A DNA stretch of 64,000 nucleotides from Moniliella sp. 'wahieum' (taxonomy: Eukaryota; Basidiomycota; Moniliellomycetes; Moniliellales; Moniliellaceae): positions 186,001 to 250,000 of the forward strand of contig RSEE01000055.1 in assembly GCA_003971905.1 (NCBI GenBank). Reading direction: 5' to 3'. The notes under the pieces are model-generated. The model saw only the letters and a program-made list of their open reading frames with translations, was not told the DNA's origin and made no database searches. The stretch's first letter is position 1. Every line of letters starts with the position of its first letter. Positions 37,939-60,678 of the stretch are shown here, one piece after another. The position numbers and the translations under genes are program-made.

Positions 37939-38668
<730 letters not shown>

Positions 38669-39996
38669 GTAAGTACATAATATTGATAGGGCGACAATTG
38701 ATATTGGCATGCTGCACATCTCTGCAAAACCTGAATGGAAGGGGGCGTGATGGTGGAGCAGATGAGGGAGCCAGTCCATTCGCTCGGTTCACCTTCCACT
38801 GGGTTCTTGGTCTATAGGGAAAGGAGAAAGGGGGATGTGGCGCACACGATTGTGAACTGCGGCGGGGGTGAAATGTTCAAGACGGCATCCGAAGCAAAGA
38901 TATGGGAATGGTTATAATGAGGTCAGTGATGGGGAGTCTCGAGTTAGTCTCCACACTCAACACGGACTCAGCACAAAGGCATCAACTGCCCCACCACTGA
39001 AGTAGAGTGCTTGTGAATGAGTTGAGGCACAAATACCCCCTCAAAACCTTCTCTCCCCAAACAGATCCCGCCTCGCTCATCGAGCGAATCTATTACTTCT
39101 TCGTCTCTCTTACGCTATGGACAGAAAGCGCGTGCCCGGGGTCAAACCTTGGCCACATGACATGGTCACCTGTTCTTCGTAGTACCTCCCCGAACACTAC
39201 TTGTCGTTGCTGTGTACTCAGCCTCTGCCTTCCAGGGCGGGTCAGTCCACGATCTCAATGTTTTTGAGGTGGCATTGGCACAACATCCCCTAAGCTTCTG
39301 AGCTAATAGAGTATGGAGAGCCCATTTCGGCTGGGAGGCCTGAAACTGATTTGCTCGGGACTATGACACATCGTAACACCATGGTGCCACCTCTAGTATC
39401 ATCGTGTTGCGCATGCCCACCTTCCCTTCTACTGGTAGGTGACATGTGACAGCGTATTCACAAAAAGAGGAAGTCATCTCACAAAGAAATATGCGCCTTC
39501 GCCGTCGACGGCGAGTTTCGTCCCACACTGCGTGTTGCCTCCCCCTTTTCTCAGATCTACAATGCTGGGCCGAGGGGGGCTTAGTCTTAAGGTCTTCGTA
39601 CATTAGTAGGTGGTAACAGTAGCGCAGCATCTTAACGCTTGAGCCCACAATCGCGGGTTGCAGCCAGATGGTGGGTGGTGTTGACGTGGTGTGCTTCTGC
39701 TAATATAGATTGACACGCGGCGCGCTGGTCCGTGCACGTATTGTCCAGGATGCACGTCATGCGGGCACTGTGCTTCCCGGGCAGGCTTCAAAGGGGCCCC
39801 AGCGCGCAGGGGGGCAGTGCGGCCGAGCGTCCCAACGGTGAGAGGCACAGGGGCAGTGTCTAACCGGTTTTCGAGCCGCTCCCACCCCCTCAGCGCTCAG
39901 CGGCCTCAGCGCAGGCTTCATCGATCACAGGGAGGACCTTAGCGATCATTGATATTGCTCGCACCCGCACTCCTGTCCCCCACCACCACCTTGATC
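38669..39996. other. Intergenic, Rab 3' region to HIBADH-like gene
   Basis: Should contain the last Rab exon in its first about 260 bp, preceded by a GTAAGT donor at 38669. The remainder (39000-39990) has short ORFs without domain signal. No RNA gene recognised. Confidence 0.5.
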
Positions 39997-40975
39997 ATGT
40001 CCTCGTCGTCGTCCGAAAAGCTGTCGCACTCGTGTGCGCCCGGCACCCAGCTCGGCTTTATTGGCCTTGGAAACATGGGCTCCGCCATGGCTCTGAACCT
40101 GGCGTTGGGTGTGCTGCAAGCCGAGCCGCCTTTGCCGCCACTCAAGGTGTTCAACCGCACCACGCCAAGGCGGAGAAGCTGGCCGCTGCGGTGGCAGCCC
40201 AAGGTGGTAAGGTGGTAATTGCCTCGTCGATTGCCGAGGTGGTACAGACGTGCCAGGTTGTCTTTACTTCGCTTACTGGCGACGAGGCTGCGATGAATGT
40301 ATGAGGCCATGTGCGACGCCGACGCCAAGCACCGCCACGCTTCGGACAGCCATGCCACCACCCACACCGTCTGGGCTGACACGTCGACGATCTACCTGAC
40401 ACGACGGGTGCGATTGAGCGCAAAGTCTCCTCCTTGCCCCAGCGCAGCTTTGTCGCCACCGGCCTTTGGTCCGCCCCCCGTGGCGCGCGCCAAGCAGCTG
40501 ATCTTTGCCATGGGGGGAAACTGGCGGGCGAAGCAGCTCCTCTCGCCTTTCCTTGTGCCTTTCATGGGCCGGAAGATTATGGACTTGGGGGGCAACCACG
40601 AGGTGGCGGCCCGGTTCAAGCTTCTGGGCAACTCGTTTATCCTGGGCCTGATTGAACTCCTGGGCGAGTCAATGACGTTGGCAGACAAGACGGACGTGGG
40701 CGCGAGCCGGTTTTACGACTTTATTCAGAAATGTTCCCTGCCTATCCGGCCGTCTCGTACGGCAAAAAATCCTCGACTCGAACTTTCGCGGGGAAGACGG
40801 GTTTAGTTTGTCGGGCGGCATCAAGGATGCGAATTTGATCCGACGTTTGGCCAACTCGGTCGACTGCCCCGTCAATGTGATTGACTCGGCCAACTCGCAT
40901 ATGATTGCGGCACGGGCCAATGCTCCGCCCGACGCGGAACTGGACTGGTCCGCGCTCGTCGCGGACAGAGGCTAA
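39997..40975 (+). CDS. NAD-binding beta-hydroxyacid dehydrogenase (3-hydroxyisobutyrate dehydrogenase-like)
   Basis: Member of the 3-hydroxyisobutyrate / 6-phosphogluconate dehydrogenase superfamily. Members oxidise beta-hydroxyacids with NAD(P); the exact substrate is not shown here. Start ATG 39997 (MSSSSSEKLSHSCAPG). Rossmann motif FIGLGNMGSAMALNLALG, then SLTGDEAAMN. The mid-domain FAMGGNWRAKQLLSPFLVPF and the helical substrate domain (ARFKLLGNSFILGLIELLGE, GASRFYDFIQK, DGFSLSGGIKDANLIRRLAN, including the active-site-type KD) run to the stop at 40973-40975. Frame changes near 40160, 40302, 40400-40440 and 40735 break the ORF, with no matching splice sites at most of them. The general family is secure. 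The domain order and the large insert between them fit a fungal HIBADH-like clade rather than the mitochondrial valine-degradation enzyme, since no clear presequence is visible. Confidence 0.8.
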
Positions 40976-41657
40976 CTGCAGGCTTGGACCCTTGGAAGGG
41001 CAAGCGCCCTGGTTTGCTGCGCGATTAGCCCCCCCCCCCCCCCCCCTTCTCCCTTTCTTGACTTGCACCCACCGCTAAGTTCTGCCCGCTAGATTCCTGC
41101 TTGTTGCATGAGAGGGATTCGATTGTGCGATGGGACTGAAACGTCTGTTGGGGGAAGGCTTCTGGATGTGGGCATGTTGAGCGTAATTTCCATTTCTGCT
41201 TTTCCGGCATATACTGGCAGCTCTTGGCTCGCTGCTGGGCTAGGCACAACCCAAGTTGGTGCGTTGGGGGCGACCAGTGCTTTCTCACAGGGATTGGACT
41301 AAGAGAGAAAAAAGAAGAGAAGCGGGCACAGAGCAAAATAATCAAGTTGTAGTGCAGGCCGGTCTAGCCGGGAGAAGACAAGAGGAGGAATCAATTAGGC
41401 AGACGAGGAGGGCCCTGGATACATAGATAGACAGGGCGTGATGCGGCACAAGAAGAGGGGTAGCCAAGCAGCAACGAAACCAAGGCGGGGGCCCACGAAC
41501 GCCGGGGGCCCTACCCCCGCGTTTCAGGTAAATAGGAAATGCGATGAATCTGACTCACTCGGCAGGTTGGGAGAGAGAGTGCGGTAGCCGGGGGAAGGGG
41601 GGGTTCAATAGAGGATGGATGTGGCTGGCAGCTTGGGGGAAGGCCGGGCCGTACACG
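40976..41657. other. Intergenic with 18-C homopolymer
   Basis: Convergent spacer between the HIBADH-like gene and the CCCH gene. Holds an uninterrupted run of 18 C at 41029-41046 and a GGGGCCC-rich stretch at 41488-41520. No gene seen. Confidence 0.6.
41029..41046. repeat. C(18) homopolymer
   Basis: Eighteen consecutive C, 53 bp after the dehydrogenase stop. By far the longest C/G run noted in the window; its true length is uncertain in any sequencing. Confidence 0.95.
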
Positions 41658-44600
41658 CTACTCGGTGGCAAGATCCCCAGAGGCAGAGTGGTTACGAGCC
41701 CGGCGCACTCGTGGACTGCGCTGGCCCGATCTGTTTTGCAACGGGGAAGCGTGGGGGGCGTGAGATTCGGGCCGGGTAGGCTGGTTGGGCGAAGATGGCT
41801 GAGGCACAGGAGGAGAAGGAGTCGAACCGGTCCTGCCCAAGGCAGAAGCGATAGGCGCACTGACTGAGCCAGGTTGGGCACGGGCACGGGTCAAAGCCTC
41901 GTGCAAGCGCGAAACTGCAACGGTCGCACTGGCTGCCGCCGACGTTCCATTCGATGGCGTCCCCCCGCCCGCACTTGCACCACGTCCACTGGGTTTGCGT
42001 AGATGATGGCCTTGTCGCGTTTTGGTGCTGCTGCCTTGCCGGCCCGACTGGGACTGGGCTTCCCCACGGCCAAGCGGGTCTTGATCCCCACTGGGGTTCG
42101 CAACGAGGGGAGGGTGGAGTTCGAATCCGTTGGGACCGGTGTGGGAACAAGCTCCTGCCTACTTACTTGGCCAGGAGCCGTGTTGACCGACGATGGACCG
42201 CTTGCCTCGGTCGAGGCACTTGTGCCTTGGCGGGTCGCCCGTGTGGGAGAAGGGAACGAGGGATGGCCAGCAACCACGTCCGAGTCGGGGTGAAGGAAAG
42301 TGCACCTCGAACCGTAGGGACAATGCCCGCCCGTGCTGGCGAACGTACGGCAGATTTGCGTTTTGTAGAGGTGGTGCCGTTCGACCGGCCGGAGTTCGCT
42401 CACTCCATGGGCAAACTGACATTTGGAACCGTAGCGACAACTCCCGCGCTCGGCCCATTTACGGCATAGCTCCGTCTTGTACAGCTCCGTTTTTCGCTGA
42501 CTGGCAGAGCTGTTGTGTCCACAGGAGCGTGCGAAGTCGCGCCACTTGTTCCGGGAGGTGGGGCGTCGCGTTCGGCCCGACCTGCGGGCCCATGGGACTG
42601 ATGCGCGAGATAGGGCCGGGAAAGGACTTGCCATGGGGCAAGACAGGAGGGAAGGATGCGTTGGCGGAGACTCCCTGCTGGTCTGGGACGGGATTGGAGA
42701 TTGGATCCGGCCGCCTTGGTATGGTGCCCGCCAAATCTCGCATCGAGACAGCCGAGACCGCGCCCCCCTCGCGTTCGAGCGGTCGGGCGTCCCCCTCAGT
42801 GTCACGAGGGGGATTCAACGCGACCTGTTCGGTCCACAAGGAAGCGGCCGAAGGTGCAGGGGGCGCGACGCGAAGCGAGGGCCAGGTACCACTGCCTGTA
42901 CCCGAAGAGGGGGGCAACGTCAAGCGTGATAGCACACGAGTTGAGGCAGGAGAAGGAGGCATACCGGCCACAAAGCGGGCCTGCTGCGCTTGTGCACGGT
43001 AGTCCCCCTGTGGATCCAGCACTGGTCCTGTCCCCAAATTCGGGCCGACAGCACCCGTTGTTGTCTGACGACGCGGCATGCTCATTCGGCGATCGATGAG
43101 GGTTGAGGCAGAGGGAGACAGATCCATTTGCGCCAGACGCATGAGCGCGTCGTTCGCCGGCCCCGAGGGTGGGCCCAATCCCATGGCAGGCAAGCGGCCA
43201 TAGGAAATGGAAGTGGTTTGTTGAGGAACCAAGGCACTCCGGCTCCGGGTTCGACGCACTTGTCGTTCTGCTGACACGACGGGCGAACTGGGCTGGTTGG
43301 CATGGGAACTTACGGGCCAAGTAGAGCCGACGGATAGGCAGAATGGGGGGGAGGTTCGTATCTCTGCTCATCCTCGTACCGCGCTCCTGAACCAAGGAGG
43401 TGGGGTAAGGCGTACTCCTGGCTCCCTCGAGTAGAGGAAGTGGACCAGTGGGGGTCGTTCGGGGGGAGCGAGGAGGCGGCTTCGAGTTCACGGGCAAGCT
43501 CAACGTCCAAGACGGGGGGGGGGAGGTAGGCGGAATCTAACGTTGAGCCCGGACCGGAGCGGGACGGATGAGAGAGGACGCTGGGGTGAAGGCAGTGCCG
43601 AGGTCGGACCAGATTCTAGGTTGGCCCAGTTATGTTGGGGAGAAGGGCCAGGGACCAGTCGGGAGCGAGAGGCGGAGGAAGGATAAGCTTGCGGTAGGAC
43701 TGACGATTGTGGACTGGTCCCACCTCGTCGGTCTGGAGTGGAAGGCGAGTTCAGGAAAGGATACAGATGTGTGCAGAGTGCAGGGAGTCTTCAGAGTGGG
43801 TGTTGGATGACAAATGTGGCAGAGAGGTCATATGAGCAGGTGCAGAGGGGAAATGCCGGTCAGGAAAAACCGTTCCATATGCGCTTGTTGAACTCGCAGG
43901 AGTAGCGGGTGCGATTGACTGGATGGGGCTGCGGGTGGGAGAACGTGTGTGGGTGGCTAGCAGCGCGGCCAGGTACTCATCCGCCGCTGGGCTTGGCAGC
44001 TGAGCTAGTTGGGGTTCATACCCCAACTCCATGGGGTCGGGATACAAGGCAGAATGGGGATATGCGGGGCCAACGGATGCGCTGACAGGCACATCAATGG
44101 AAGCAGCAGAGGAAGCTGCAATGGAGGACAGGCGGACATCAGGCGGCGGCAGCGATGCTGAAGCAGAGGGGGCTGGAAGCTGGGAGGCCGACGCAAACAC
44201 ACATGAGTCCGTTGAAATAAGGAAACAGTGAGGCAGAGGGCAAACGGAAAGCAAGTGATTTCATCGGAGGTGGTGTACGATGTGTTCGACATGGGCGCGG
44301 AAGCGGAAGACCCAATGTCAAGGCAGGACACGATGACATGGTGAGGAGGTACAGGCGCAACAACGATCAAAGATCGATCATCGATCATCGGACAACCCCG
44401 TCCCAAGCGAGCGTCGGAGCAGAGCGATTGATAGTGAAGTGATGGTGAGTTGTTCCCAACACCGACATCAAAGAGCAAAAGAGGATATGAAAAAAGGGTT
44501 ACTCGGTCAGTACCAAATGCCGGCACTTTTGCCCATACGCATGTTCTCCCTAACGGTGAGAGGCGCCATGCACAGGCGGGCCCATACGCTCGACACACTC

Positions 44601-45118
44601 CACTACTAGCAACCCACTGGGGTACCACCGCAGGAGAGGGCACAGCGGATGGACACCATCATGCGCGCCACCCCCCAACCGCAGCCGTACCCGAAAGCCG
44701 ATGGGGAGTGGCCCTAGTCTCCCAGACCCGCCTGGCAGCGCAGGGCACCCGCATCAAGCTTCAAGCTTCAAGCTTCAAGGGCACCAAGACCTGAAAACGA
44801 AACATACCTGTGATTGTGAATGAGACGCGTCGTAGTCAATTAGCCATATGGGAAGCTCTCCGTATGCGCTAGCGCCACCTTTGAGACCGGCTACCCCATG
44901 CTCACCATCGTTGTCTACAGAGGACGCGGCAGGGAAAGGGGCCGGGGTAGAGAGGGGGGCGGAAGGCGTGGCGGGTAGTGGGAGCGGTGGAGGGCGGGAG
45001 GGGCGGGAGGATCAAAGGCAATGTGGGGAGGTTGGAACGCCGCTGGGGACTGGAGGTGGGAAGGGGCAGGAGAGGAGGGGTGGGGTTGGCTAGGTGACGG
45101 TGCAGAGGTCGGGATCAT
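41658..45118 (-). CDS. Tandem CCCH zinc-finger RNA-binding protein (tristetraprolin/Zfs1-like)
   Basis: Two CX8CX5CX3H fingers in tandem with the TIS11 lead-in: [18 protein letters not shown] with [12 protein letters not shown], then [19 protein letters not shown] with SRCTFLHP, at about 42484-42280. This class binds AU-rich elements in mRNA 3' UTRs and promotes decay. The rest is long, Ser/Pro-rich and disordered. An upstream exon with ATG 45118-45116 ([15 protein letters not shown]) ends [11 protein letters not shown] before a GTATGT donor at 44806. Further exonic sequence appears at about 44200-43760 ([15 protein letters not shown]) and 43550-43310 ([15 protein letters not shown]). The C-terminus probably runs to 41658 ([13 protein letters not shown]). 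Joining 44806 to about 44200 needs an unusually long intron, so the first exon could belong to another transcript. A run of ten G at 43514-43523 is one likely frameshift point. Confidence 0.78.
44755..44779. repeat. CAAGCTT heptamer array
   Basis: Three-plus head-to-tail CAAGCTT units (complement of AAGCTTG), inside the putative long intron of the CCCH gene. Confidence 0.9.
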
Positions 45119-47183
45119 GGCGGGAGACGGATGAATGCGGAGCTCACGCTGGGATCAGCGCGTGGCTGCGTTGGCTAACAAGCAACGGACAGGCAGCAGC
45201 AGGAGTGGCAGGTGGAGCGAAGGCGGGGAGGAGGCGGGGGTGTGGGGGACACAGCCATGGCCGCGCGCTTCCGGGCGCGCTTGCAAGAGGACGGAGGGCG
45301 AGGGCAAGAAGGAAGCGGGGGAGAGATGTGCGGGATGTGCGGCGAGCGGCGGAAGAAGGCGCGAGCACAGGGACTAGTGGCTCGTGAGACTGGCCCGACG
45401 GGACCGCGTGGTGTGGTGGCAGTGGGGCTGCGTGCGGGTGGTGGGTGCTGGGCGCGTGGAGCAGCGCGAGGGGATGGATGCGGCGCAAGTGGTGGAGGGG
45501 GCGGTGGGGGAGCATCCACGAGCACGGTACAGGTGGGCACGCCAGCGGACGAAGCCGTGGGAGCCAGCGGACGCCAGCAGCGCCCGCAGTCCGCGTCAGC
45601 GTCAGCACTCAGCTGCCCAGACCAGCCACGCAAGCTCTCAGCCTCCCGCCTCAGGCCTTCGGGCGCACGGCGTCTGATCGATCTGAGCGTCTGAACAAAA
45701 CAAAAAAACCAAGCCCTGGGGGGCTGGCTGGCCAGGGTGCAGTTCGGGCGGGCTGCTGGTGACTTTGAAGCGCCGTTGCGAACCCCGTCCTGGACCAGTG
45801 ACAGACCGTGCGTGGCACGTAACACGCACCTGTCATGGACCGCCTACCGGCTACCGGCTACCGCTGGTCAGCTGACCGCGTGGGCGCTCGGGCTGCGCTC
45901 AGCGCGCTGAGCTGAGCTGGGTCTACTAGCTGGTACTAGCTGCTGAGACTCGCCGCGCTGAGGGCGCTAAATAGAAGGCGCTCAAGGGCCTTGCGGAGCT
46001 TGTACGCACATTCCTGAACCTCAGAGGAGGCGTACAGAGGGCCTCTGCCTATCCGCCTTCGTCCTACCGTGTGGCCGGCTGGAGTTGCAGCCACGCGCCA
46101 CGTCCGATTCGGGGCCAGAAGCGCCAAGCGTAAAACATACCCGGCAACCGGTAGCCGGTAGCCGCTTACCTTCTGTCTCTCTCTGGGTGTGCACGAGCCC
46201 ATGTCCGAGTGGAAAAGAGAGCCCCGGAACCGCATGGAGGGACATCGACTTTTGCCGTAGCCACAGCAATCAACTCGCCCCGAGCTACTGCTGTTGGTAC
46301 CATCAAGCAGTACCGGCTGTTCGTCTGTTGAGCGCTGAGCATGGAGCAACACTGCCCACGGCTGACGCCACCGCCCAGGCTGCCCAGAAAAAGCCCTTCA
46401 ACGAGTGATTGAGACCGTTCGAAGGGCCACAGACAATGAGGCCCTTTGGCTTTGTTAGTTGGGATGGAGAAGAGCCCACTCGATCTCTGGCAGGATCTCG
46501 CATCTCGTACTGCACAATGCCTCATGCGTGCAACAACCGAAAGCATTCGATGTTGCGACCGTCTTTTGTGCTGCGAGCAGATCCACAGTCGATTCGATGA
46601 TCGATGAACGTACCGGGGCTTTGCAGCGGGTGGGTGTGATGATGAATTCGACGATGGAATATGGACTGATGGGGACTCGGCGATCAAGCTGGCCATCGAT
46701 CAAGTTTTCCCTTGCCCGCCCCACCACTAAGTACTATCCGTTCATCGGTTCTACGTTATGGATCTGCCGATGGCGTCGGCAGTCGGCGGCTGACTAGCAG
46801 CTAGCTAGCTTGGCTATGCGGGGCGTTCACACTGAGCTCACCGTGCTGACAAACTGGGCGGCTACTGTGGACTAAACTAACTCATTGTCTGAGATCTGAT
46901 CGATCTCTGATCCCTTTTGTCCCATATTCCCCCCATCAGTACTCAGTAGCCCTATCTACACCTTCCGCCACCGACGGCCGTAATTAACGTAATTATATCT
47001 ACTTACAGTATCCTTGCCTCCAATCCTGCCGTCCTCATCATGCCCCCCACGCCGCACCACGCGCATGCTCTTCATGAGTATCATTCTGGAGTCCGGACCT
47101 TGATACAATCCCTAATGGTTATTGGGGGCCTTCATGGCCCTGCGGAAGAAAGCGAAGGGAGACGGGATATGAGCCCGACAACG
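45119..47183. other. 2 kb intergenic region
   Basis: Between the CCCH gene 5' end and the severed 3' end of ERG25. The left half is very GC-rich (upstream of the CCCH gene), with GGAGGC- and GTCAGC-type reiterations. The right half is mixed, with CTAGCTAGCT (46797-46810) and GATCGATCATCGATC motifs. The numerous ORFs are compositional shadows and no domain was recognised. Confidence 0.55.
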
Positions 47184-47231
47184 TTACTCGCGTTTGAACG
47201 CAATCTTCTTGGCCTGGGCACGGTCCATGCC
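47184..47231 (-). pseudogene. ERG25: Severed last codons of ERG25
   Basis: On the minus strand this 48-bp piece reads G-MDRAQAKKIAFKRE-stop (stop 47184-47186), a lysine-rich C-terminal tail of the kind C-4 methylsterol oxidases carry. Its first five bases (GGCAT, 47231-47227) duplicate the five bases at 48636-48632, where the main ERG25 exon stops. It is separated from the rest of the gene by the 1.4 kb LTR element, so it can only be translated if the element is spliced out or absent in another allele. Confidence 0.85.
47227..47231. repeat. Target-site duplication, left copy
   Basis: ATGCC on the + strand immediately outside the left LTR; identical to 48632-48636 outside the right LTR. Confidence 0.93.
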
Positions 47232-47471
47232 TGTTGGCCTAGGGAGCCGGACGGGCAGAAGGATGAGGAGAAGGTGATGGATTGGAGCCAGAGTTGGGTC
47301 TGGGTACAGAGGCATCTATATAGGAGGCTGGACTAGGCACAGGGACAGTGAGTCACACAGGAGAGAGTGCAGGGCACAGGGACAGTGACACGCAGGGACG
47401 TCAGCGTGGAAGCCGATGGAACCGAGGCGAACCTGGTCTACCGACTGGGAGCCAGAGGATCACAGTCAACA
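47232..47471. repeat. LTR, left copy (240 bp)
   Basis: Starts TGTTGGCCTAGGG and ends AGTCAACA. Contains a TATA-like CTATATAG (47310s), palindromic so it does not fix orientation. Identical to 48393-48631 except for one extra G near 47362. Confidence 0.95.
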
Positions 47472-48193
47472 CCCCCGCTGGCCAGGGAACCCGGAGACAT
47501 CGGTTGTGGGATGAGCTCCTGCCAGTGGATGTAGAGAGGGGAGGACTTGAGTGGCAACCGGGACGAATGGCCTGGAGTTGTGCATGGCCACACGACTGGC
47601 CTACACCCCCGCTGTCCAGGATGACACCTGAACGAGCCGAGCGCTTGTGGTTGGTGTATTGTGCGACCGCCAGATGCTTGTAGAAGTCTTAGAAGTAAAA
47701 GTAGTAGGGGTTGCGCCCCGAAGCGATTTGGTGGGCAAAAGTAAAAAGCACCAGTTATAGGTGTAGTGAAAGAAAATTGGAAACTTGGAGTAAATGCGGT
47801 CCAAGGTCGTTTGGCATCAAAATTGGATGCGTTTGGTAGTTGTTTGGTTCCGCATGCCTGGTGCCAGTGGGGTCCATTGGGCATGGGAAATGAACGGGCG
47901 CTATGCGTCAACCGTCTTGATCTGTTTGGGTTCTCTTTGTTGTTGAAAAAGAGGAGTGGAAGAAGTTGGGTGACCACCCCCCCCCATCCTTTCCCCAGGT
48001 GCCCCGGATGAATTGGCAATCCGGGGCGTGTAGCCGTGGGTGGGGCACTTGATGAGCAGCCACCCCCGCTTTCTGCGATTCGCCTGCGCCGTTTTGTCGT
48101 TGGAGGAATTTCGTCTCGTTGACGATACCCGACACGTTTTGTTCCGTCGTGTGTTGTCCCTAAAAATCATTGCCCCATCTGTGGGGGACGAGT

Positions 48194-48270
48194 GTGCCGA
48201 TTGTGGCGGTAGTATGCCGATTGTGGCGGTAGTATGCCGATTGTGGCGGTAAGGTGCCGATTGTGGCGGT
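48194..48270. repeat. 20-bp tandem repeat inside the LTR element
   Basis: Four copies of TGCCGATTGTGGCGGTAGTA (the last ones diverging to AAGG and GGTG at the end). Confidence 0.93.
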
Positions 48271-48392
48271 GGTGTTGTTGGGCGGGAGGACGGGTGTGTC
48301 TTGTGGGCTTGGCGGCTTAGCTTGGGCTTGTAGGCTTGGGGGTGGGCTTGCTTGAAGAGCGCTCCCCTTCCGGGGGGATCAGATTGTAGCTC

Positions 48393-48631
48393 TGTTGGCC
48401 TAGGGAGCCGGACGGGCAGAAGGATGAGGAGAAGGTGATGGATTGGAGCCAGAGTTGGGTCTGGGTACAGAGGCATCTATATAGGAGGCTGGACTAGGCA
48501 CAGGGACAGTGAGTCACACAGAGAGAGTGCAGGGCACAGGGACAGTGACACGCAGGGACGTCAGCGTGGAAGCCGATGGAACCGAGGCGAACCTGGTCTA
48601 CCGACTGGGAGCCAGAGGATCACAGTCAACA
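48393..48631. repeat. LTR, right copy (239 bp)
   Basis: Same ends as the left copy. On the minus strand it begins directly after the ERG25 GGCAT and supplies an in-frame stop at 48598-48600, 11 codons into the element. Confidence 0.95.
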
Positions 48632-49614
48632 ATGCCCTTGGCAATCAGCCTGCGCATCTCCTTCTGGTTGGCCCTTGCTTGGTGGTAGGTGCCCTCGGTG
48701 CCCATCATGTAGTCCCACCACCGGAACGAGGAGGCGTAGCAGCCAATAAACGCTTGGTGGTGGTGGTCGTGGTGGTCCGCGCCGGCCCAGAAGGAAGAAT
48801 GTGGCGGAGGCTAAAGGGGAAGTCGTACCCACTGTGCGAGTCAACCGCTTGGAACAGACGGAAAGAATCCAGATGTACACGGTGACCAGATGCACATTGC
48901 CCGTCATGTACGCCAGCGCGAGCGGCCCACCAATGGTGCCCATTCCCAACGAGAGCGTTTCGAGTGGGTGTGCGTACTCGGCGGCCAGACCAAAGGGAGC
49001 TGCACGAACACGGGTTAGTAGCGAGGCCTACCGGACATCCATGACCACAGCAGGGAGGGAGCGGACGTACCAGCATATTCATGGTGCTTCTTGTGAATGT
49101 AGCGGTAAAAGGGACCCCAGTGGAACAAGCGGTGAGCCCAGTAGTGCCACGTGTCCTCAATGACGAAGAAGATAGCGATTTGCCAGGCCATGGTGGTGAG
49201 CGCAGGGAACGGGACCTCATACGTTGCCAAACCGAGGTATTGGCACATGGGGTGGAACCCCCAAATTTGGGGCAGCTCCACCGTAAAGTGGCTAAGGAGC
49301 ACGTACTTGGTGCACTCCCATTGGTCCCGCCAAGTAGGCACCTTGTCGTCTTGGATCTTGTATTTGCGCAGGGCCGGGATGGCGTCAATGATGATCCAAG
49401 GCACAGAACGACCAAAGTACAAGAGCTCATGGAGGACAAAGCTCATCACTCCGGTCGCAATGATGGGGTTGTCCCACCAGAGGTACCATTGCACCCACCC
49501 CTTCTCAAACATGTTGAGGCTGGCATAGTCCACGCCTTGGTACATGGCGGCGCCATGGACGTCAACATGCGGGTTGACGAGTCCCTCAAATAAGGTTGTC
49601 GCATTGAACGACAT
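48598..49614 (-). CDS. ERG25: C-4 methylsterol oxidase, C-terminus replaced by LTR sequence
   Basis: ER membrane di-iron oxygenase that oxidises the C-4 methyl groups in ergosterol synthesis. Start ATG 49614-49612 ([18 protein letters not shown]). Exon 1 ends at 49071. A 71-nt intron (49070-49000) has a GTACGT donor, CTACTAAC branch site and GTGCAG acceptor. All three histidine boxes are present: HRLFH (WAHRLFHWG), HKKHH (IHKKHHEYA) and HHDHH, the last in exon 2. The gene-derived sequence stops at 48632 after MRRLIAKG. The reading frame then runs into the retroelement, adding [11 protein letters not shown] before a stop at 48598. The native last 14 residues (see 47184-47231) are lost. Two missing-T frameshifts in exon 2 (near 48857 and 48787) are probable sequence errors. 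The histidine boxes are upstream of the insertion, so activity may survive. Confidence 0.92.
48632..48636. repeat. Target-site duplication, right copy
   Basis: ATGCC on the + strand directly after the right LTR, matching 47227-47231. On the gene strand it is the GGC AT of the codons for Gly and (originally) Met. Confidence 0.93.
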
Positions 49615-50491
49615 GTTGATGACCGATGAAAAAGAAGGTGGTGGAGAAGACTGGGTGGGATGACAAGGTGGGAGACGAGAGGCAAAGTGGGGCTGTGGAC
49701 TCTTATACGTCTCTCGCGTTTCTTGCTTGCTTACCGGATGGATCCAGCCGATGGGCAAACAAGGGCAATGCGCGCGTCGGATCTTCGCCCTGCCAGACCA
49801 GCTGAGAGTGGCCGCTTGGGCACTGACGCACTGTGCCGTGATGATCTCATTCGCCCCTCTCCGGCTGGGTAAACTACATGGCAAGATGGCCTGCTCATAT
49901 AACCTGAGCCGCTCGCGCCTATAGGCCAGAGACACGCTTGGAAGCACCAATGGCGCTGCCATTCTGGGACGACAAAACACACTGGTCCCAAGCGGTAGGT
50001 TGTGCGCCAAACCCTAGCAGTCCTCTCCCGAGCTGTCAATGCATATTGGTTTCAATATTGAAGCTTTGAAAATTTTAAATTTTAGAGGCGTTCACGAGGT
50101 GGCGAACGTGGCCACGACAAACTCGCATCTTGGTCCTACGACCTGAGGGCCTGAGGCCTCGCAGCCAAGGCAAAGAACCGCTGCTTGCTAGTTACGCCCC
50201 CAGGCTCAAACTCTCCGCATCTCCAGGTAGGATTTTTTATTGCAACAGCTGGCCCAACCAATAAGGCAGTATGGCACAGAGCTACATGAAAAGGTGGCAT
50301 GGAGGGGACGGCCAAGGGCCAGAGGCCACGGCCAATTTTGTAGGAGTGGAACATGCGCGAGGGCAACATGAGGGCAGGGCGGACTGGTGGGTGCACACTG
50401 CACCAAACATAGCGGGACAAACAGAGATACAAAGAACCACCCTTGAAAGAAGACCCAACGGCATCATGTTCAAGGCGAACGGGCAAGGCAT
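49615..50491. other. Intergenic: ERG25 promoter and uL14 3' flank
   Basis: An AT-rich AAAATTTTAAATTTTAG block (50067-50084) and CCTGAGG heptamers (50141-50160) lie in the middle. No gene recognised; the ERG25 frame stays open upstream of its ATG but lacks conserved sequence. Confidence 0.55.
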
Positions 50492-50970
50492 TTAGACGAC
50501 AGTGCCGGCGTTCGAGGCGATACGGGGCCAGAGGTCAGCGCACTCCTTGGCCACGGGGCCAGTGATGGCCGAGCCCTTCATCTCGCCCTTGGGGTTCACA
50601 ATGACACCGGCGTTGTCCTCAAAGTAGAGGAACACACCGTCCTTCCTCCGCCACGTCTTGCGCTGGCGAATGACAATGGCCGGCATGACTATCGATGCAT
50701 GTCAGTCATCTCAGCAAACAAGGTAACAGGTGCAGAGCAGAGTCACAAAAACATACCCTTCTTGCGGAGCTCCGGCTTGCCCTTCTTGACCGAAGCGACA
50801 AACATGTCACCGGCCGAGGCGGCGGGCAGACGGTTGAGGCGGGCACCCGTACCGTGCACAGCAATGACGAACAGGTTCTTGGCGCCCGTGTTGTCAGCGC
50901 AGTTCATCACGGCGCCGACAGGCAGACCGAGGGTCATGCGGTACTTGGTTCCTTGCGCTCCCTTGGGCAT
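50492..50970 (-). CDS. RPL23: 60S ribosomal protein uL14 (RPL23)
   Basis: Cytosolic large-subunit protein at the subunit interface. Two exons, 50970-50757 and 50688-50492, with a 68-nt intron (GTATGT...GATAG), give 136 residues, the normal length. Sequence is unmistakable: [48 protein letters not shown] joined in phase to [20 protein letters not shown], then [20 protein letters not shown] and the invariant end [15 protein letters not shown]. No frameshift. Start chosen at [12 protein letters not shown] because it gives the standard short N-terminus and lies just after a stop-rich leader. Confidence 0.97.
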
Positions 50971-51676
50971 TGTGAGTTATTCTGTTTGGACACAGCCCGT
51001 GTCAGCCACGCGGTTCTCATCTTTGGCGCTCGTGGGCGGGGGCGCATGGAGCTACACAGTGCCCGAACGGAGATCCAAACACGCACCTTGAGTTGGTTGG
51101 CTGTCGACGGATGGAAAGCAGGTGGGCGAGCGGGAGGGCCAAGCCGCCGCAGCGGACAGACAGCTGGGCAGAGTAGGGTTTGGCATTTGGACCGACGGCA
51201 GCACTGCACAAGTGTACCGGCGCCCTACTGCGGCAGGCAGGCAGGGGTAGGGTTGCACTGCGCTGGCTGGAGCGCGTTGTACCGACGACGAGGAAGAGTT
51301 GAACGTTCAAAGTGGACGCACGTCGACGCGCTGACAGGGGAGGGAGGATGGGTGCAAGGGGCAATGGCAGTTGCAAGGGAAAGGCGGCGGCAGGCAGCGG
51401 GGCGACGCAGCGCCGCAGAGGAGAGCACTGCCGCCTGCGATCCGCCCCGGCTGGCACGAGGCACCGCCCCAGTCTCGACGCACGGCCCAGTCTCCCCTCC
51501 GGCAGAGTGCTGTGGTGCCGCAGCGGCCCCCGGGCTGCCAGCAGCAGCCTGCAGCGGCGGAGGGCGAGCGTCGCTGAGCAGCCCAGCCTTGCCCAGCGTC
51601 CTGAACGCTCGGCCCACGCTCAGCTCCACTCCCGCCGTTGCCACACCACCACCACCCCCTCCACCTCCACCCTGCC
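50971..51676. other. Divergent promoter region, RPL23 / BAR protein
   Basis: 700 bp, very GC-rich near the BAR gene. A GTTGAACGTTCAA palindrome lies at 51299-51311. Overlapping ORFs (e.g. 51312-51827) are CG-bias shadows. Confidence 0.6.
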
Positions 51677-52657
51677 ATGGACGCCTGGAAGTCGTTTACC
51701 ACCTCCCTCTCTGGCGCCGCTGCCACGGCCGCTGCCAGCGCTGCGCCCGTCGGCTCGCGTCTCAGCAAGCAGCTCGGCCACCTGTCCCAGCAGGCTCGCG
51801 AGCGCCTGGGCGCAGTCGACGATGTGACGGAGCTGCCGGCTGAGTACCGTGCGCTGGAGGCGCGCGTCGATGGCCTGCACGGCCCACGCCGCTGTCGCCC
51901 GTGTAGTCAAGGTGTACGAGAGCGAGGCGTACGACTGCCCCGTCAACGTCCAAGAGTCGGTCAGCGAAGCGTCTCGCGCTCGCTACCACTGTCAGTACCT
52001 GGGCTGCCCAGGCGCGCGGCACGCCAGCTGCTCACCAGTCTGCCCCCCCTCCCCACCGCACGCTTGCCCATACCCTCTCCCGTGCGGCAGCTAGCGCGGC
52101 CGTCGACCTTCAGCCCAAAGCCGGTGCCGAGACGGAGGAGCCCGAGGCGGTGCAGGCCTTGGCCTCCGCCCTGCAATCGGTCAGCATTGCCACGAACAGT
52201 GTGGGCAATGCACGTCTGGAGCAAGACCACGAGATTATCGCCTCCTTCTACACGCCCTGGATTGCCTTTGGCAACCAAATTGGCTTGGCCACCAAGGCGC
52301 GCCAAGCGGTGGGAGATGCACGGCTGGAGCTGGATGCGGCCAAGCAGACGCTCAAGTCGCTGGAGACGTCCTTGGCCACCTCCCCAGCCGCCGACCGGTC
52401 CAGGCTTGAGAAGGCCCAGACGGACGTGGAAAATGCAGAGGATGCGCTGGCCGCAACGGAGGATGCGATTGGGCTGATGAAGAATGTGCTGGAGAACCCC
52501 GAGCCGGTGCGGATGCTCGGCGTGCTGGTTCAAGTGTACTCCTGCCTCTTGTTCCTCGATGCGAAACTGACCCTTCCGCCACAGGCAAGCCGAGTTCCAT
52601 CGCAAAGCGGCAGAAGCGCTCGAGACGGCCTTGGCCCAGGTCTCGGCGATTCATTAA
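51677..52657 (+). CDS. BAR-domain protein (Gvp36-like)
   Basis: Membrane-curvature protein of the fungal Gvp36/BAR_2 group, linked to Golgi, endosome and vacuole trafficking. Start ATG 51677 (MDAWKSFTTSLSGAAATAAA). The amphipathic N-terminal segment SKQLGHLSQQARERLGAVDD and LPAEYRALEARVDGL open the domain. After a frame change and a probable intron (about 51990-52090) the core helices follow: IATNSVGNARLEQDHEIIAS, FYTPWIAFGNQIGLATKARQ, AVGDARLELDAAKQTLKSLE and ENAEDALAATEDAIGLMKNV. A last intron ends CCACAG at about 52584, and the final exon AEFHRKAAEALETALAQVSA ends IH at the TAA 52655-52657. The Gvp36 assignment is by overall pattern (NARLxxD, FYxPW, KARxxVxxARLxxD). Confidence 0.85.
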
Positions 52658-53268
52658 GATACCTCCCCTTCCCTTTCCCGCCAAGTTGGTGGTGTGTGTA
52701 TTGCCAATGATGTTGCTCCCCCTGCCCCCCCCCCTCACACACATCCGCCTGAGGTCCAGTTCGGCATTCATTGTTCCTCTGTGTTGGTCTCTGTGCACGC
52801 GACGCTCCCAGACGTGTCCTGATGAACCCTGAATTTATGTGTAGTCTCTGTGTGTGAGCGGCTGAGACCAATGTTGTACCGAGATAGGGGGTGACGATAT
52901 TGGGCCGGACACGAGAAGCCTCTAAACGGGAGGGAGGAGAACAACACAGATCGATTCATCTGAGGGTGCAGCTGGGCCACCACGTCCTAGGTAGGGGAAA
53001 GAAAAAAATTAGACGTCCAAACAACATAACTAACTAGTCGGTGAGCACCTCGTCCTACGTGCGTGAACTGTGGCCGTTGCCGGTTGAACTTCAACGTTGA
53101 TGCTACCTTTTTGCCGTTGGTTTCGCCGCTCTCCTTCACAGCATGTCACCTTAGTCTGGAGTCACTCTCCTGAGATCTGAGATGGGGGACTGTTTATGGG
53201 GCTGTACAAGGGTTGCAGCAAACAGAGGGATAGATTGTCGTATGCACAAAAGGGTACTAAGTAGGTTT
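52658..53268. other. Convergent intergenic region
   Basis: Between the BAR gene and complex I 75-kDa subunit stops. C-run 52720-52734 (CCCCCTGCCCCCCCCCC) and a GGTTGAACTTCAACGTTGA motif (53079-53097). Nothing coding. Confidence 0.6.
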
Positions 53269-55563
53269 CTACCCCAAACGTGCATGGGGTGGCAGGGGGT
53301 CTTCGATCTGCTCCTGCGGAAGTTTCTCAATAAACGCCTTGACGCACTTGACCATCGTCGGGGACGCGCGGCTGATTGGGTCGGTCTGGTAAAAGTTCTT
53401 GATCGGGTTGACCAAGGGCGCACCCGTTGCTTCCGCCAGATTCCCGCCGGCAATCAGCTGGTTCAAGCCCAGAAGCGCCGTGGCGGGCTGGTGGGCTCCG
53501 CTACATCGTACCGCACCAGCGTCGGGGAGATGTCAAACAGCCGGTCACGCAGCTCCAACGTACTGTCGTACGGCAAGGTCACCCCCACCTCCGACAAGGC
53601 ACGAACAATCTTCCAGTCCTCCCGGCTCGCTCCGGGCGGAGGCACGGCAGCACGGGTAAGCTGAGTCCGGCCTTCGGTGTTAACATACGTCACACTCTTC
53701 TCCGTGTACGCTGCGCCTGGCAACACCACATCGGCATACTGCGCACCCACATCACCGTGGTGTCCTTGGTACACCACGAAGGCTTCCTCGGGAATCGAGG
53801 CAGGGTCAAAGTCGTCAGAGTTGAGAAGGTAAATGAATTTGGGCTCCGTCTTCTCGGCCGCCTTGGAAGGTGCAAAGCCAAGCTCGTTCGCTCCGTTGCG
53901 AGAGGCCGTACGTTGCAGAATGCTGAGCCCGTTCCACTCGGGCGTGAGGAACTGGGCCTGGTGTTGCTTGATGTGATTGGCAATGCCACTGAGAATGTGT
54001 TTGCCATCCGCATTTTCAGGACCGCGCTGCCCACAATAATCATCGGTTTCTTGGCCGCTTGGAACTTTTGCGCAAACTCCGAGGAACCAGTCAGGGCTTC
54101 CTGCAACGCCGTGGCGTCCGTACCCAGATGAGCATAGTCGTACGTCAAGTCTTCCGGTTCACCCACCAGCCCCAGATCCTGTCCCAGACGAAGGAATGCC
54201 TTGCGCAGACGAGCATTGACCAGCGTCCCCTCGTGCCGCGGGCTGGTGCCGACCACAAAACCACATCTGCATCTTCGATCCCAGCAATCCCAGCGTTGAA
54301 CGAGTAGTTGGAGCGAATCGACGCATTGATGCTGGTCTTGTCGCCGCCAGGCAAATCAATGGTAGTGTTGTCTGAACCCAGCCGGTTGATCAGGTCCTTG
54401 AGCGCGGCGAGCGACTCGGTGTCGGCCAACGCACCCGCTACCGCCTTGATCTCGTTCCCTTGGGCTTGGGTCGAGATCAGCCCGGCAGCAATTGACGCCA
54501 GTGCTTCGGGCCAAGTAGCGGGCACGAACCGATCGCCCTGTTTGATGAGCGGGGCCGTGAGGCGCTGGTACTTGAGACCGTCGACGGCAAAGCGCGTCTT
54601 GTCGTTGATCCACTCCTCGTTGACATCGTCGTTGGTACGGGGGAGAACGCGCATGACCTGCACGCCCCGCGAGTCTACACGAATGTTTGAGCCAACGGCA
54701 TCAAGTACATCGATGGACTCGGTGTTCTTCAGTTCCCACGGACGCGAGTGGAACGCACCGGGCTTGCTCGTCAGCGCACCCACAGGGCACAGATCAATCA
54801 CGTTGCCCGACAGCTCGGAATTGAGCACCTGCTCTACATACATGCCAATCTGCAGGTCGTTCCCACGGCCCGTCGTGCCCATCTCTTGCACACCGGCAAT
54901 CTCGTTGGAGAAGCGCACACAGCGAGTGCAGTGAATGCAACGCGTCATCACCGTCTTGACCAAGGGGCCCATGTACTTGTCCTCTACCGCACGCTTACCC
55001 TTGACTTCATGGAAGCGGCCGCGGTCCGCACCGTAGCGCATCGACTGGTCCTGCAAGTCGCACTCCCCGCCCCAGTCGCAGATAGGGCAGTCGAGCGGGT
55101 GGTTGGACAGCAGGAACTCCATCACGCCTTCCCGCCACGAGTTGACCTTGGCCGAGGTGGTGCTGATCACTTGCCCCGGCATGGCGGGGAAGGCACACGA
55201 GGCAAGCGGTTTGGGCGCGCCCTTGCTCTCGACGAGGCACATGCGGCAGTTGCCCGCCACGTTGAGGCGCTCGTGGTAGCAGAAACGCGGGATCTGGGCG
55301 CCAGCCTGCTCGCAAGCCTGGATCAAAGCCGTGCTGCATATGCAGAGGTCAGCAGGGAGGGGGGGTTAGAAAACGGGAGGCGGAAAGAGGACATACCCCT
55401 GCGGCACCTCGATCTCCTTGCCATCCACCGTGAGCTTGATCATCTTGATGTCGGCGGCGGCGGCGTGGGCGACGCGTGCCGAGGTGGCGAGGGCGGCGGC
55501 GAGGGCGGGCGCATGGGGGCGCGACACGCGCGCCAGCGGGGCAAGCGAGGCGCGCAGCAGCAT
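53269..55563 (-). CDS. NDUFS1: NADH:ubiquinone oxidoreductase 75/78-kDa iron-sulfur subunit
   Basis: Largest subunit of the complex I electron-input module in the mitochondrial inner membrane (matrix side). Start ATG 55563-55561 with an Arg/Ala-rich import presequence ([20 protein letters not shown]). A 63-nt intron (55396-55334, GTATGT...TGCAG) interrupts [16 protein letters not shown] in phase. Cluster ligands are all visible: [15 protein letters not shown] (2Fe-2S), [18 protein letters not shown] and [19 protein letters not shown] (4Fe-4S). The molybdopterin-oxidoreductase-like domain follows ([20 protein letters not shown], then [19 protein letters not shown] and [20 protein letters not shown]). 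It ends PLPPHARLG at 53269. Frameshifts near 54258 (A4 run on +), 54015 (T4 run), 53800 and 53470 split an otherwise continuous protein. Confidence 0.94.
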
Positions 55564-55843
55564 GGAGCGGGGGTCGATGGCGGCGCAGACAGCGGCGCGG
55601 CGGCCGGGGGGTTGGATCTTGGAGCTGAAGCCAGGCGGGGGAAATTAGTAATGGGCAACCCTAGCGGCTGCCTGCCCGGCCTGGCCTGTGGTCGATGATC
55701 GACAGTCTCCACTAAGTATACTTATATATGAGCAGCACATCACCCATTGGAATGGCTGGGCTACGGTGTGCTGCGACTACATAGGTACACTATGCCTGCG
55801 TCCGCTGTGCTCCCCAGCGTCCCTCGCGTGCGCGCCAACGTGC
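55564..55843. other. Intergenic, NDUFS1 upstream
   Basis: 280 bp with a TATACTTATATATG element on the + strand (55717-55730), read TATATAAGTATA toward NDUFS1 at about 155 bp upstream of its ATG: a plausible core promoter element. Confidence 0.45.
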
Positions 55844-58800
55844 TCATCGTACTGATATCTGCCCCTCAGGTGCTGCCTGCACTGCCTGTGCGCCCGGCGC
55901 GCGCATCCCCCCCCCCGCCGGCCGCCGGCCGAGTGCGGCCGCCGGTGCGGCTCCTCCGTCGACAGCGGCGAGAAGGGCCGTGGCCCCGGCTCGGAGCGCG
56001 TCGCCGACACGGCACTGGCCCCCGGACTGACCACCATCTTGTCCCGCGACACCAGCACGCTCTCCCCCCGCCCGGCCGAGACGGGCGGCGTGCGCCGGGA
56101 CTGCTGCCTCTTCTTCCCGCCCCCGTCGCCCTCCGCCACTCGACATGCGGCGCCGTTTGGCCCCGGCACGCGGTGAGCCCGCCCCCGCTGTCCCGCGTTC
56201 ACGCTTTAGCCGCCCGCCCATTCGCACCCGTAGGAAGCGCACTGCGGACGCTGGCCGCACTCGCTGCGCTCGTCGCACTGGCGGCATTGACGCCCGTGGG
56301 GGGGCACCGCTACCGTTACCGGACAACCGAGCGGTCGTTGGCGCCGCCGGCCCACTCGGCACACTGGTGGGTCCCCTCGGAGGCTGAGGCTGAGGCTGGT
56401 ACCGCACCCCCCCCGCCAAGCCCAGCAATGCATCCACCGCCCCGCTATCCGCCTCCTGCAGTTCCTCTTTCCCGCTTTCCTCCGAGTCCGACTTGCGGGT
56501 CTTGGTCTTGCGGCGCGCTCGGGGCGACGCGCGGGGCTGCTGGGGATTGGCGATGGGTGGGGAAGGGGTCAGGCCCGGAGCAGATACGGATACGGATGCG
56601 GTGCGGCTAGGACCAGGCTCAGGGTTACGCCGCGCCGGGTCTGCGCCCGGCCCCAGTGGCTGGGAGGGCGGTAGCTCGCGCTCGGCTGCTACTGCGTCCG
56701 GGCGCTCGGCTCCGACCCCCGGCCCGATCGGGCGGGGGGCGGAGGTCGGGCTGCATGACAGGAAAGCCGCTTGGGCGCGCAGCTACTGGCACGCCAGGCC
56801 CGAGGCTATGCAAGGCAGGTACGTTGGCATCCGGCACGGCAGGCGCATTTTCGCCTTCCCCTGCCTCGTAGGAGCCTGTGAGATACTGCGCTGTCGTACT
56901 CACATCCAGGGCGTGGGCGGGGAGCGCGGAGGGATGGGCGTGTCGTTGGGCTCGGCAAGGAAGGTGCGCAAGCGGGCAGCGATCACGGGGTTCCGGGTCC
57001 AACTGGGCAGCCCGCACGTACGCGTCCCGTGCGTCCTGCCGCTGGTTGTTGCACGTTTCGTACAGACAGCCAAGGTTGAACCACACCTCGGGGATGCCAG
57101 GGTGGAGCTGGATGGCGCGGCTGAAGGCATCGAGCGTGTCTTCGTACTGCTCAATACGGTAGTACAGCAGGCCGATCGAACACCAGAACGTGGCTTGGTT
57201 CCCATCGCGGAAAACAGCCTGCTGGTACGCCTCGTACGCCTTGTCGTAATTCTCTTGGGCCATCAAGGCGCGGCCGAGAAGGTACCAGGTCTGAGCATCC
57301 GCCGCATCGGCCTCGAGCGAGATTGTCAGATACTCCACCGCCCGATCCTGGTCGGCAAAGGGGGTTTCAGAATGGAGATAGAGCCCCCCCAACTGCTGGA
57401 GCACCTTGGCGTGCTGCGGTAACTCGCGAGCACACGCTCGTACGCTTCTTTGGCCATCACAAAGTCCCGCTGTAGCTCGCACACGTGGCCCACCTGGAAC
57501 TGGATATCCGCCTGCTTCAACGGCGCAGGCGGATCGGGAAGGATGTAGCGGAAACAATCGAGGCTGGCAGGGAACTTGCGCTGTTGCTTGTAGATCACCC
57601 CGAGCCGGAAAAAGATCTCGTTTGCCTTGTCAAAGTCGGCATCCATGCTCACCACGCTAGAAAAGGCTTGCTCGGCATGCTCCAGCAGGCCATACCGGTC
57701 GTACAGGATCCCAATCCCGTACCACAGCCGCGGCTCCTTGGGGTTGGAGAGGTTGTAGAGCGCTTTCTGGTACGCCGCATACGCACTCTGCAAGTCGTCC
57801 ATCATCAGGTAGCAGTGGCCCAGCGCACCCCACGTCTCCCCGTCCTCAGGGGCAAGCTGGAGCGCGCGCTGCAACACTTCCACCGCCTTGTCCTGCTGTT
57901 CCATATCCCGGTACACATTCCCCAGCGCCCGATGGGCCGCCAACGAGTGCGGCTCGTGCTGCAGTGCGTTCTGTATCGAATGGATGGCTCGTTCGTAGCC
58001 ATCCGGGCCGCCCATCGTCGTTGCCGCCGAGGCTGCATGGGGTGGGAGGTTAGCGCCGTATCAAAGCGAAGCAAAAAGACAAAACAGAACCAACAGGTAC
58101 GCACCAATCGACAACCAGGTTTCCACGTTGGCCTGGATCAGTTCTTTCATCACCCCTACCGCCTCTCGGACGGGGGAGGAAACTGTGCCGAAGATGGACG
58201 GAGAGGAGGCGAGAGCTTGGTCCCAGCCGCATCCGCCTCTGCATCCGCGCCCGCAGCGATGGCAGTCGTAGCAGGGTCATTGGCCATCCTCAGCCTCCGC
58301 CCAGCTGTGGCATGAACAGGCACGGGCGCCACCACACGTCCCGCTGCCGTGGCCGCCGCTTCCATCGGCTCTTCCCGTAGCAGTGGCGACCGTATCGGAA
58401 GAGGCATCCTCCCCATCGTGGGAGCTGCCTCAATGCGCTGCGCCTCAACTTGAGCATGAGCAGTCTCCATGTGGTGGGCATGAGCTGCGGCTTCCATCTG
58501 GGCCTGAGCCTGAGCCTGAGCCTGAGCTGGGCCTGAGCTTGAGCCTGACCTGAGCTTGAGCTTGAGCCTGAGCTTGAGTATGTGCTTCAGCCTGTGCCTG
58601 AGCTTGGGCTTGCGCTTGCGCCTGTGCATGAGCTTGGGCTTGGGCTTGGGCTTGGCTTGGGCTTGTGCCTGAGCCTGAGCTTGAGCTTGAGCTTGGGCGG
58701 CCTGGGCCCGTGCTTGAGCTTGGGCTTGAGCTTGGGCTTGGGCTTGAGCTTGGGCTTGAGCTTGGGCTTGGGCTTGAGCTTTTGCAGCTTGTGCTTGAGC

Positions 58801-59911
58801 CTGGGCTTGAGCTTGGGCCTGGGCTTCAGCTTCAGCCTGAGCCTGGGCCTGAGCTTCGGCTTCGGCTTCAGCTTCAGCTGCAGCCTGAGCCTGGGCCTGG
58901 GCCTGGGCCTGGGCTGGCCTTGCTTGAGCTTGCGCATGTGCTTGTGCTTGAGCATGTGCTTGCGCTTGTGCATGAGCCCGTTCCTCTTCGACCTCGTCCG
59001 GCTCTGGAGGCGCAGTATAGGGCGGAAGAAGGCTCATGGCCACACCCTGTTGGCGGTTATGATCGTATTCCCGCTCGTATGCCATCAAGCGTTCGCGTGT
59101 CCGCTCAACAGGAGGCAACACATGCAGTGCATGAGGCCTCGCCGCGCATGGTCCCGTTCCCACTTCCTCCCACTCTCGCTTCGGCCGATCCCGCTCCTCG
59201 GCCATCAGGGCGAAGGGTGGCGCGCGGCTCCCCCTGGGCGTGGGCAGCTTGTGCGTGTGCTTGCGCTTGTGTTGGGCATGGGCTTGTGCTGAGCGTGGGC
59301 ATGGGCATGTGCTTGGGCTTGGGTTGGGCGTGGGCATGGGCCTGGGCCTGGGCCTGAGCATGGTACTCGTACTCGACTCATACTCTCTCTGGGCGCGCTC
59401 GCGCTCATATGCCGCATGCGCCTCGCGCTCCTCCCATGGCACCTCCCCGGCTGGCGAGGCGACGCCTCGTATCGCCCGCGCCGAGGCGGCATGGCAGGAT
59501 GCCAGGGGGAAGCATGCACACTGCGTGGCGGCGAGCGGAGCGGAGACCCGGGCGCCATGGCGGGGACGGGGTGGGGCCCGTGCGGGCGGCAGGCGAGTAG
59601 TGCGGGTGGGGATGGGCCAGGACCGAGGGCGGGCGGGCGGGCGGATGCATGCGGGCGTCGGGATCGGGATCGCGCTCGCGGCTGGCATAGCGCGCAGGGT
59701 AGGGCGCGGGCGGTAGGCCGGCTCAGCGTCGTACGCGGCGGCGGCGGCGGCGGCGGTAGGGCGGGCGGTAGGCGGGCGGCGGCGGCGGGTAGGCCGGGGG
59801 CTGCCGGGCGGCGGCGGCGGGGCGGCGTAGGCGTAGGGCGCGCATAGACGTCGGGCACGGGGGGGCCGCGCGGGGCGGCGCGGCGGGCGGCAGACGCTGG
59901 CTGTAGGCCAT
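55844..59911 (-). CDS. SSN6: General transcriptional corepressor Ssn6/Cyc8 (TPR protein)
   Basis: Partner of Tup1 in global repression. Start ATG 59911-59909 ([17 protein letters not shown]), followed by a Pro/Arg/Ala-rich N-terminus. A long (Ala-Gln)n domain is encoded by a GCTCAA-type hexanucleotide array (about 58990-58500). Then [14 protein letters not shown] marks the entry to the TPR block. A 72-nt intron (58104-58033, GTGCGT...ATGCAG) splits the first repeat. Tandem TPRs run about 58020-56990: [80 protein letters not shown] and [20 protein letters not shown]. About ten repeats, as in the family. The C-terminus is Ser/Pro-rich with [18 protein letters not shown] near 56090. The exact stop (55844 or 55777) is uncertain. 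Frame breaks occur near 57400 and inside the AQ array. Confidence 0.9.
58500..58990 (-). repeat. Hexanucleotide array coding for poly(Ala-Gln)
   Basis: Imperfect GCTCAA/GCCCAG hexamers on the minus strand encode AQAQAQ in SSN6. Because the unit is 6 bp, all frames stay open: another frame reads LKPKLKPK and the + strand reads LGLGLS. A segment at about 58640-58530 has slipped to the KPKPK frame relative to AQAQ, so the array contains at least two compensating or erroneous single-base changes. Confidence 0.9.
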
Positions 59912-60644: not shown

Positions 60645-60678
60645 GAGCTTGAAGCTTGAAGCTTGAAGCTTGAAGCTG
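60645..60678. repeat. AAGCTTG heptamer array, four-plus units
   Basis: Longest perfect example of the family: GAGCTTGAAGCTTGAAGCTT and onward, ending GAAGCTGG. Confidence 0.95.

Follow-up and report, generated by a model that had tools for sequence, protein, structure and literature searches.

In the reading that we favour, with a probability of about 90%, one of several ERG25 copies has recently had its last exon interrupted by a short non-autonomous LTR retrotransposon of the TRIM type, inserted in sense and probably mobilised by a copia family. The reading draws on the anatomy of the element, its target duplication, an empty homologous site, the family of related elements in the genome, and the cis signals shared with copia. 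The proposed sequence of events is as follows. The resident Ty1/copia family would have mobilised the short element in trans, and its recent landing, in sense, would have split the final exon of a single ERG25 copy. The message of the interrupted copy would end in the LTR, or else the last 14 residues of the protein would be exchanged for 11 LTR-coded ones. With the ER-retrieval lysine gone, the enzyme would be weak or mislocalised, and the allele on contig C7 together with the homeologous copies would cover the lost function. The window, that is, the whole stretch of 64,000 nucleotides under analysis, is G000:C55:186001-250000, and the assembly searched comprises 69,493,810 bases in 223 contigs. 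Coordinates given without a contig name are those of the window; the features are collected in Table 1.

Table 1. Features of the interrupted ERG25 copy and of the inserted element (window coordinates)
Feature	Position	Strand	Basis
ERG25 (C-4 methylsterol oxidase) exon 1, 181 open codons and one base	49071..49614	-	PF04116, homologs
ERG25 intron, GTACGT...GCAG, 71 nt	49000..49070	-	boundaries agree in five-copy alignment
ERG25 exon 2 as far as the insertion, with two 1-nt deletions	48632..48999	-	five-copy alignment
Target-site duplication ATGCC, right copy	48632..48636	.	sequence letters
5' LTR in element sense, 239 bp; ERG25's own strand	48393..48631	-	LTR comparison
Primer-binding-site (PBS) position GAGCTACAATCTGA, immediately after the LTR	48379..48392	-	same letters in Ty1/copia element
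Leader repeats, four CCACAATCGGC at 20-bp spacing	48196..48266	-	resemble copia leader motif CCACCATCGGC
Internal region, 921 bp	47472..48392	-	two longest sense ORFs without Pfam match
Polypurine-tract (PPT) position CTGGCCAGCGGGGG, adjoining the 3' LTR	47472..47485	-	common to copia element
3' LTR, 240 bp	47232..47471	-	LTR comparison
Target-site duplication ATGCC, left copy	47227..47231	.	sequence letters
Detached natural ERG25 C-terminus, GMDRAQAKKIAFKRE and stop, 48 bp, lysine at -3	47184..47231	-	contiguous with exon 2 in C7, C4, C117, C29

The 3' end of ERG25 exon 1 has a match to the fatty-acid hydroxylase domain PF04116 (C55:235018-235176), and the joined exons match homologous proteins. 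The best named homologs among the matches listed are C-4 sterol methyl oxidases, led by that of Tilletiaria anomala (63%), followed by Thecaphora frezii (66%) and Tilletia (62-65%), which places the fungal host probably in Ustilaginomycotina. Two proteins encoded on short contigs are closer to exon 1, with 87% and 77% identity. The histidine boxes, located by eye, are situated upstream of the insertion and are intact.

The 1,400-bp element (47232-48631) splits the last exon at 48632/48631, 48 bp before the stop codon, and is a recent, true LTR-element insertion. Its LTRs have the ends TGTTGG...TCAACA and differ from each other by no substitutions and one 1-nt gap. The original prediction had argued for a true retroelement insertion from the ATGCC duplication and the TG...CA LTRs. 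Both are present with the letters and at the positions claimed, and the insertion itself is borne out by the perfect duplication, the exact LTR ends and the empty site on C7. A Pfam scan applied to the element's two longest sense ORFs gave no match at E 0.01. The PPT core AGCGGGGGT, apart from its occurrence at the 3' LTR, has two extra copies inside the element, at about 48070 and 47613.

The empty site is found on contig C7, whose ERG25 copy is 98% identical to that of the window; on this contig the sequences that flank the element at 47231 and 48632 are contiguous, and ATGCC occurs once. Thus the element-free allele that had been suggested to exist beside the interrupted one is present in the assembly. 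The two collinear blocks that a 30-kb stretch of C7 shares with the window are 94.2% (30503-46885) and 94.1% (48632-61214) identical when gaps are counted, and a short intervening piece has 92%. The element is repetitive, and its tandem arrays elsewhere in the genome can mislead assemblers into joining it to a locus where it does not belong; such a chimeric join is nevertheless very improbable here, because a single C7 locus matches the flanks collinearly on both sides, over about 16 kb and about 13 kb, and the perfect duplication and exact LTR ends also speak against it.

Beside C7, ERG25 copies are present on C4, C117 and C29; hence there are four further copies in the genome, all without the element and with an uninterrupted tail. 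They had escaped the original prediction, which nevertheless proposed a search of the assembly for a second copy. The C4, C117 and C29 copies are 78-83% identical to that of the window, and each has nearby the window's next gene, which, as read from its ORFs, we take to encode ribosomal protein uL14. The 48 bp downstream of the element, which include one copy of the duplication and end with the stop codon at 47184, had been claimed to be the natural C-terminus; they are uninterrupted in all four copies, and instead of being unrelated sequence they are conserved. The weight originally placed on ERG25 being essential in yeast is not retained, as there are five copies, four of them without the element; the puzzle of an interrupted essential gene dissolves because these four exist. 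Together with the homeologous copies, the C7 allele probably makes up for the interrupted gene.

The exon 2 sequence of the window contains two 1-nt deletions that had been missed earlier, at codons 227 and 251 of the five-copy alignment (near 48864 and 48793). If real, they would make this copy a pseudogene regardless of the element, and the insertion would have struck already dead DNA. However, each of the five copies carries from 2 to 10 indel events, as expected of an unpolished long-read assembly: two deletions in the window, two in C7, three in C4, two deletions and two insertions in C117, and ten events in C29, of which three are insertions and seven deletions, one of the latter 2 nt long. 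The total is 21 events, 20 of them of 1 nt, and many are seen by eye in or beside short homopolymers. The substitutions, moreover, are biased to the third codon position in all ten pairs of copies, the counts at positions 1/2/3 being 18/1/114 for C4 and C117 and 1/0/9 for C55 and C7; because of the latter pattern both the C55 and C7 copies were coding until recently. We therefore consider the dead-gene alternative quite unlikely: scattered 1-nt indels in every copy, together with third-position bias, suggest that the exon 2 deletions are probably assembly errors rather than decay. At that, treating the C7 copy as intact assumes that its own two 1-nt deletions are assembly errors too.

Reading from ERG25 into the LTR yields 11 codons followed by TAG at 48600-48598. 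In this respect the letters agree with the original description of the truncated protein, whereas its frame is not open throughout: due to the two deletions in exon 2, the truncated protein is not a single open frame as assembled. The consequences of the new tail were considered using a set of ERG25 homologs, 166 of the 193 listed being kept by length (285-360) and the presence of two core motifs, and 27 dropped. The tail after the SFRWW motif has from 26 to 65 residues in 158 homologs, and given this variation, tail length is not the constraint. A lysine is present at -3 in 157 of the 166, of which 87 also have one at -4; the nine without it include P0126, which is among the ten best matches. 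These two positions are those of the lysines in the KKXX ER-retrieval signal that has been reported for ERG25 (PMC8028809, which cites Kennedy et al. 2000). The -3 lysine is present in the C7, C4, C117 and C29 copies and absent from the LTR-truncated reading: the native tail ends with FKRE, with one lysine, at -3, and the LTR reading ends with APSR. Since the histidine boxes are upstream and untouched, the predicted product could fold, though without the retrieval lysine. Because that lysine is lost, we predict the LTR-tailed product to be weak or mislocalised, and the suggestion that the allele still works with an exchanged tail is doubtful. In addition, the sense-oriented LTR may terminate the ERG25 message early.

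The natural tail with its -3 lysine would be kept if the element were spliced out as a new intron. Two in-frame donor/acceptor pairs exist in the real element. One of them combines the donor CG/GTAGAC in the upstream LTR (48601) with the acceptor CCCTAG/G where the other LTR ends (47239), in frame and free of stops; 30 + 7 + 5 nt would be retained, that is, 42 nt or 14 extra codons in frame. However, in-frame splicing-out is no better than chance, because at least one such exit is offered by 243 of 500 dinucleotide-shuffled elements. Further, the donor has no G at +5, the resulting intron would measure 1,363 nt whereas ERG25's own has 71 nt, and no comparable second coding insertion was found in the limited ORF scan described below (17 ORFs, 13 sites). 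We regard this outcome as unlikely; in Arabidopsis, splicing has been considered in connection with ONSEN insertions (PMC12112155).

Returning to the TRIM, its relatives were collected by a genome search with the 1,400-bp element (60 matches listed, 40 of 188 candidate places scored). Among the listed matches, at least 51 are nearly full-length, at 96-100% identity. The best 30 loci correspond to 24 sites, of which 21 have both ends readable. Perfect 5-bp duplications, 18 of them different, flank 19 of these 21; in the two exceptions the duplication agrees in four of five letters (L038) or is absent (L043). At least seven of the 24 sites (on C145, C1, C99, C139, C69, C23 and C91) contain arrays of elements sharing LTRs, and in the arrays on C1, C139, C69 and C91, where both outer ends are in hand, one duplication flanks the whole array. 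Eight more places with LTRs were inspected: seven run into element sequence, in one case internally deleted, and one, at C1:83872, is a solo LTR. Inverted, adjoining pairs of partial elements are seen at C34:327195-329177 and C145:56318-58397.

TRIMs have been characterised by a size below 1,500 bp, at least two complete copies with different duplications, and the absence of retrotransposon proteins (PMC4717578). The element is 1,400 bp long, its copies have perfect duplications of mostly different sequence as counted above, and its two longest sense ORFs match nothing in Pfam; because of these properties it is a TRIM, i.e. a short non-autonomous LTR retrotransposon. As to other insertions in genes, the longest frame per side and strand was taken at the other sites, giving 31 ORFs of at least 60 aa; no Pfam match was obtained among the 17 of them, from 13 sites, that were scanned. 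The exon 2 piece of the window, taken as one frame broken by the deletions, has no Pfam match either, so the ORF test would miss genes with indels.

The candidate partner of the TRIM is a Ty1/copia family. A search of the genome with a 15-letter pattern that straddles the PBS/LTR border gave 103 matches. For 18 PBS sites among the 100 listed, a match to the copia reverse transcriptase profile PF07727 (150 of 204 candidates scored) is found at a distance of 2.5-4.0 kb, in the order and on the strand right for a full element; a wrong arrangement is seen within 6 kb for one. One copia copy, C12:225874-231139, was read at its ends: it is 5,266 bp long, has 211-bp LTRs (210 of 211 positions identical) and is flanked by a CAGGC duplication. 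This copy and the TRIM have in common the 14-nt putative PBS, the final ACA of the LTR, and 21 nt at the junction of the putative PPT with the LTR, so that the same genome contains a coding element with matching cis signals. The LTR interiors have at most weak similarity, with 12 of 500 mononucleotide shuffles aligning as well. The leader motif CCACMATCGGC, four times in tandem in the TRIM, has one or two exact copies in each of four copia leaders; the best alignment of the TRIM leader with the one copia leader compared, that of L071, is equalled by one of 1,000 dinucleotide shuffles. Because PBS, PPT and LTR tips are common to both, we infer that the TRIM is probably mobilised in trans by the resident copia family.

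A more tentative and rather doubtful extension is that the TRIM is a minimal parasite of cis signals, in which the multiplied CCACMATCGGC would act as a signal for Gag packaging or for dimerisation, which could explain a recent burst; the packaging role is a guess. Were this reading of the motif true, the burst would be that of the more than 50 near-identical TRIM copies.

The primer of Drosophila copia is a half-tRNA. The complement of the PBS resembles an anticodon arm with GTA, suggesting the 5' half of tRNA-Tyr as the primer, but no supporting tRNA was obtained. Of two gapped patterns for tRNA-Tyr, the first had no match and the second had one, which is not a tRNA by ARAGORN or Rfam; ARAGORN applied to 44 loci found tRNA-Gln and tRNA-Thr and no tRNA-Tyr. 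Hence no primer tRNA for this PBS position emerged from the patterns, from ARAGORN on these loci, or from Rfam.

The family resembles the plant TRIMs and tandem TRIMs as portrayed in the consulted parts of PMC4717578: those too are shorter than 1,500 bp, lack retrotransposon proteins, have differing 5-bp duplications, form LTR-sharing arrays with one outer duplication, and include recent polymorphic insertions. Unlike them, our family resides in a fungal host, and its ERG25 member sits in a coding exon. Related larger elements were given there for 11 of 289 plant TRIM subfamilies; the putative partner here is recognised by PBS, PPT and LTR tips and not by similar LTR bodies. In the basidiomycetes Coniophora olivacea and other Boletales, TRIMs are likewise short non-coding LTR elements, making up less than 1% of the genome (PMC5689174), but the sections seen give them as class totals in a table, while here the anatomy, a probable partner and an exonic insertion are resolved. 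The ta-TRIM of taeniid tapeworms (PMC4558846) similarly has solo LTRs, a few tandem copies and effects on host transcripts; the effects described consist of read-through driven by the LTR and of fusions with genes downstream, in contrast to the coding-exon insertion considered here. In the excerpts of the fungal TRIM literature that we found, annotation is at most at the class level, and such a family may still be in print. The element-free ERG25 copies belong to the same family as the ERG25 with a KKXX signal (PMC8028809) and share its C-terminal -3 lysine, but FKRE has one lysine, and the window reading has lost it.

An exonic TRIM insertion sheltered by gene copies is a tidy but fairly ordinary case. 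What looked like a broken essential gene becomes an example of how redundant gene copies shelter a fresh exonic insertion, and it carries a sharp prediction, the loss of the ER-retrieval lysine. Further, this fungal TRIM family has a probable autonomous partner recognisable from cis signals alone, and matching of cis signals is thus a route to the partners of orphan TRIMs.

For the window gene at 54148-55365, which by reading we take to be NDUFS1, there are two short matches and six long ones. The long matches form three contig pairs (C55/C7, C41/C42 and C117/C29), and identities to the copy in the window are 96%, 88% and 86%. Matches to the alanyl-tRNA synthetase domain are found on C4, C65, C16 and C17, with fragments on C29 and C53. 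Such contig-paired gene copies suggest that the genome has about three homeologous sets and is represented by two haplotypes, as in a hybrid, polyploid or dikaryotic assembly; among the titles listed in a literature search on polyploid Exobasidiomycetes, none concerned such a genome.

Several minor observations concern these copies. Degenerate or weak ERG25 matches are seen at C42:230420-230512 and perhaps at C41:224400-224627, a few kb from the third pair of the 54148-55365 gene, as if a homeologous ERG25 copy had been lost there. Opposite window position 46885, 3' of ERG25, C7 has about 634 bp extra, which by eye consist of a roughly 110-bp unit repeated about three times and GC-rich repeats, an indel difference between the haplotypes. 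Finally, window positions 58475-58985 have several overlapping matches (73-75%) to one stretch of C7 and are probably a degenerate tandem repeat.
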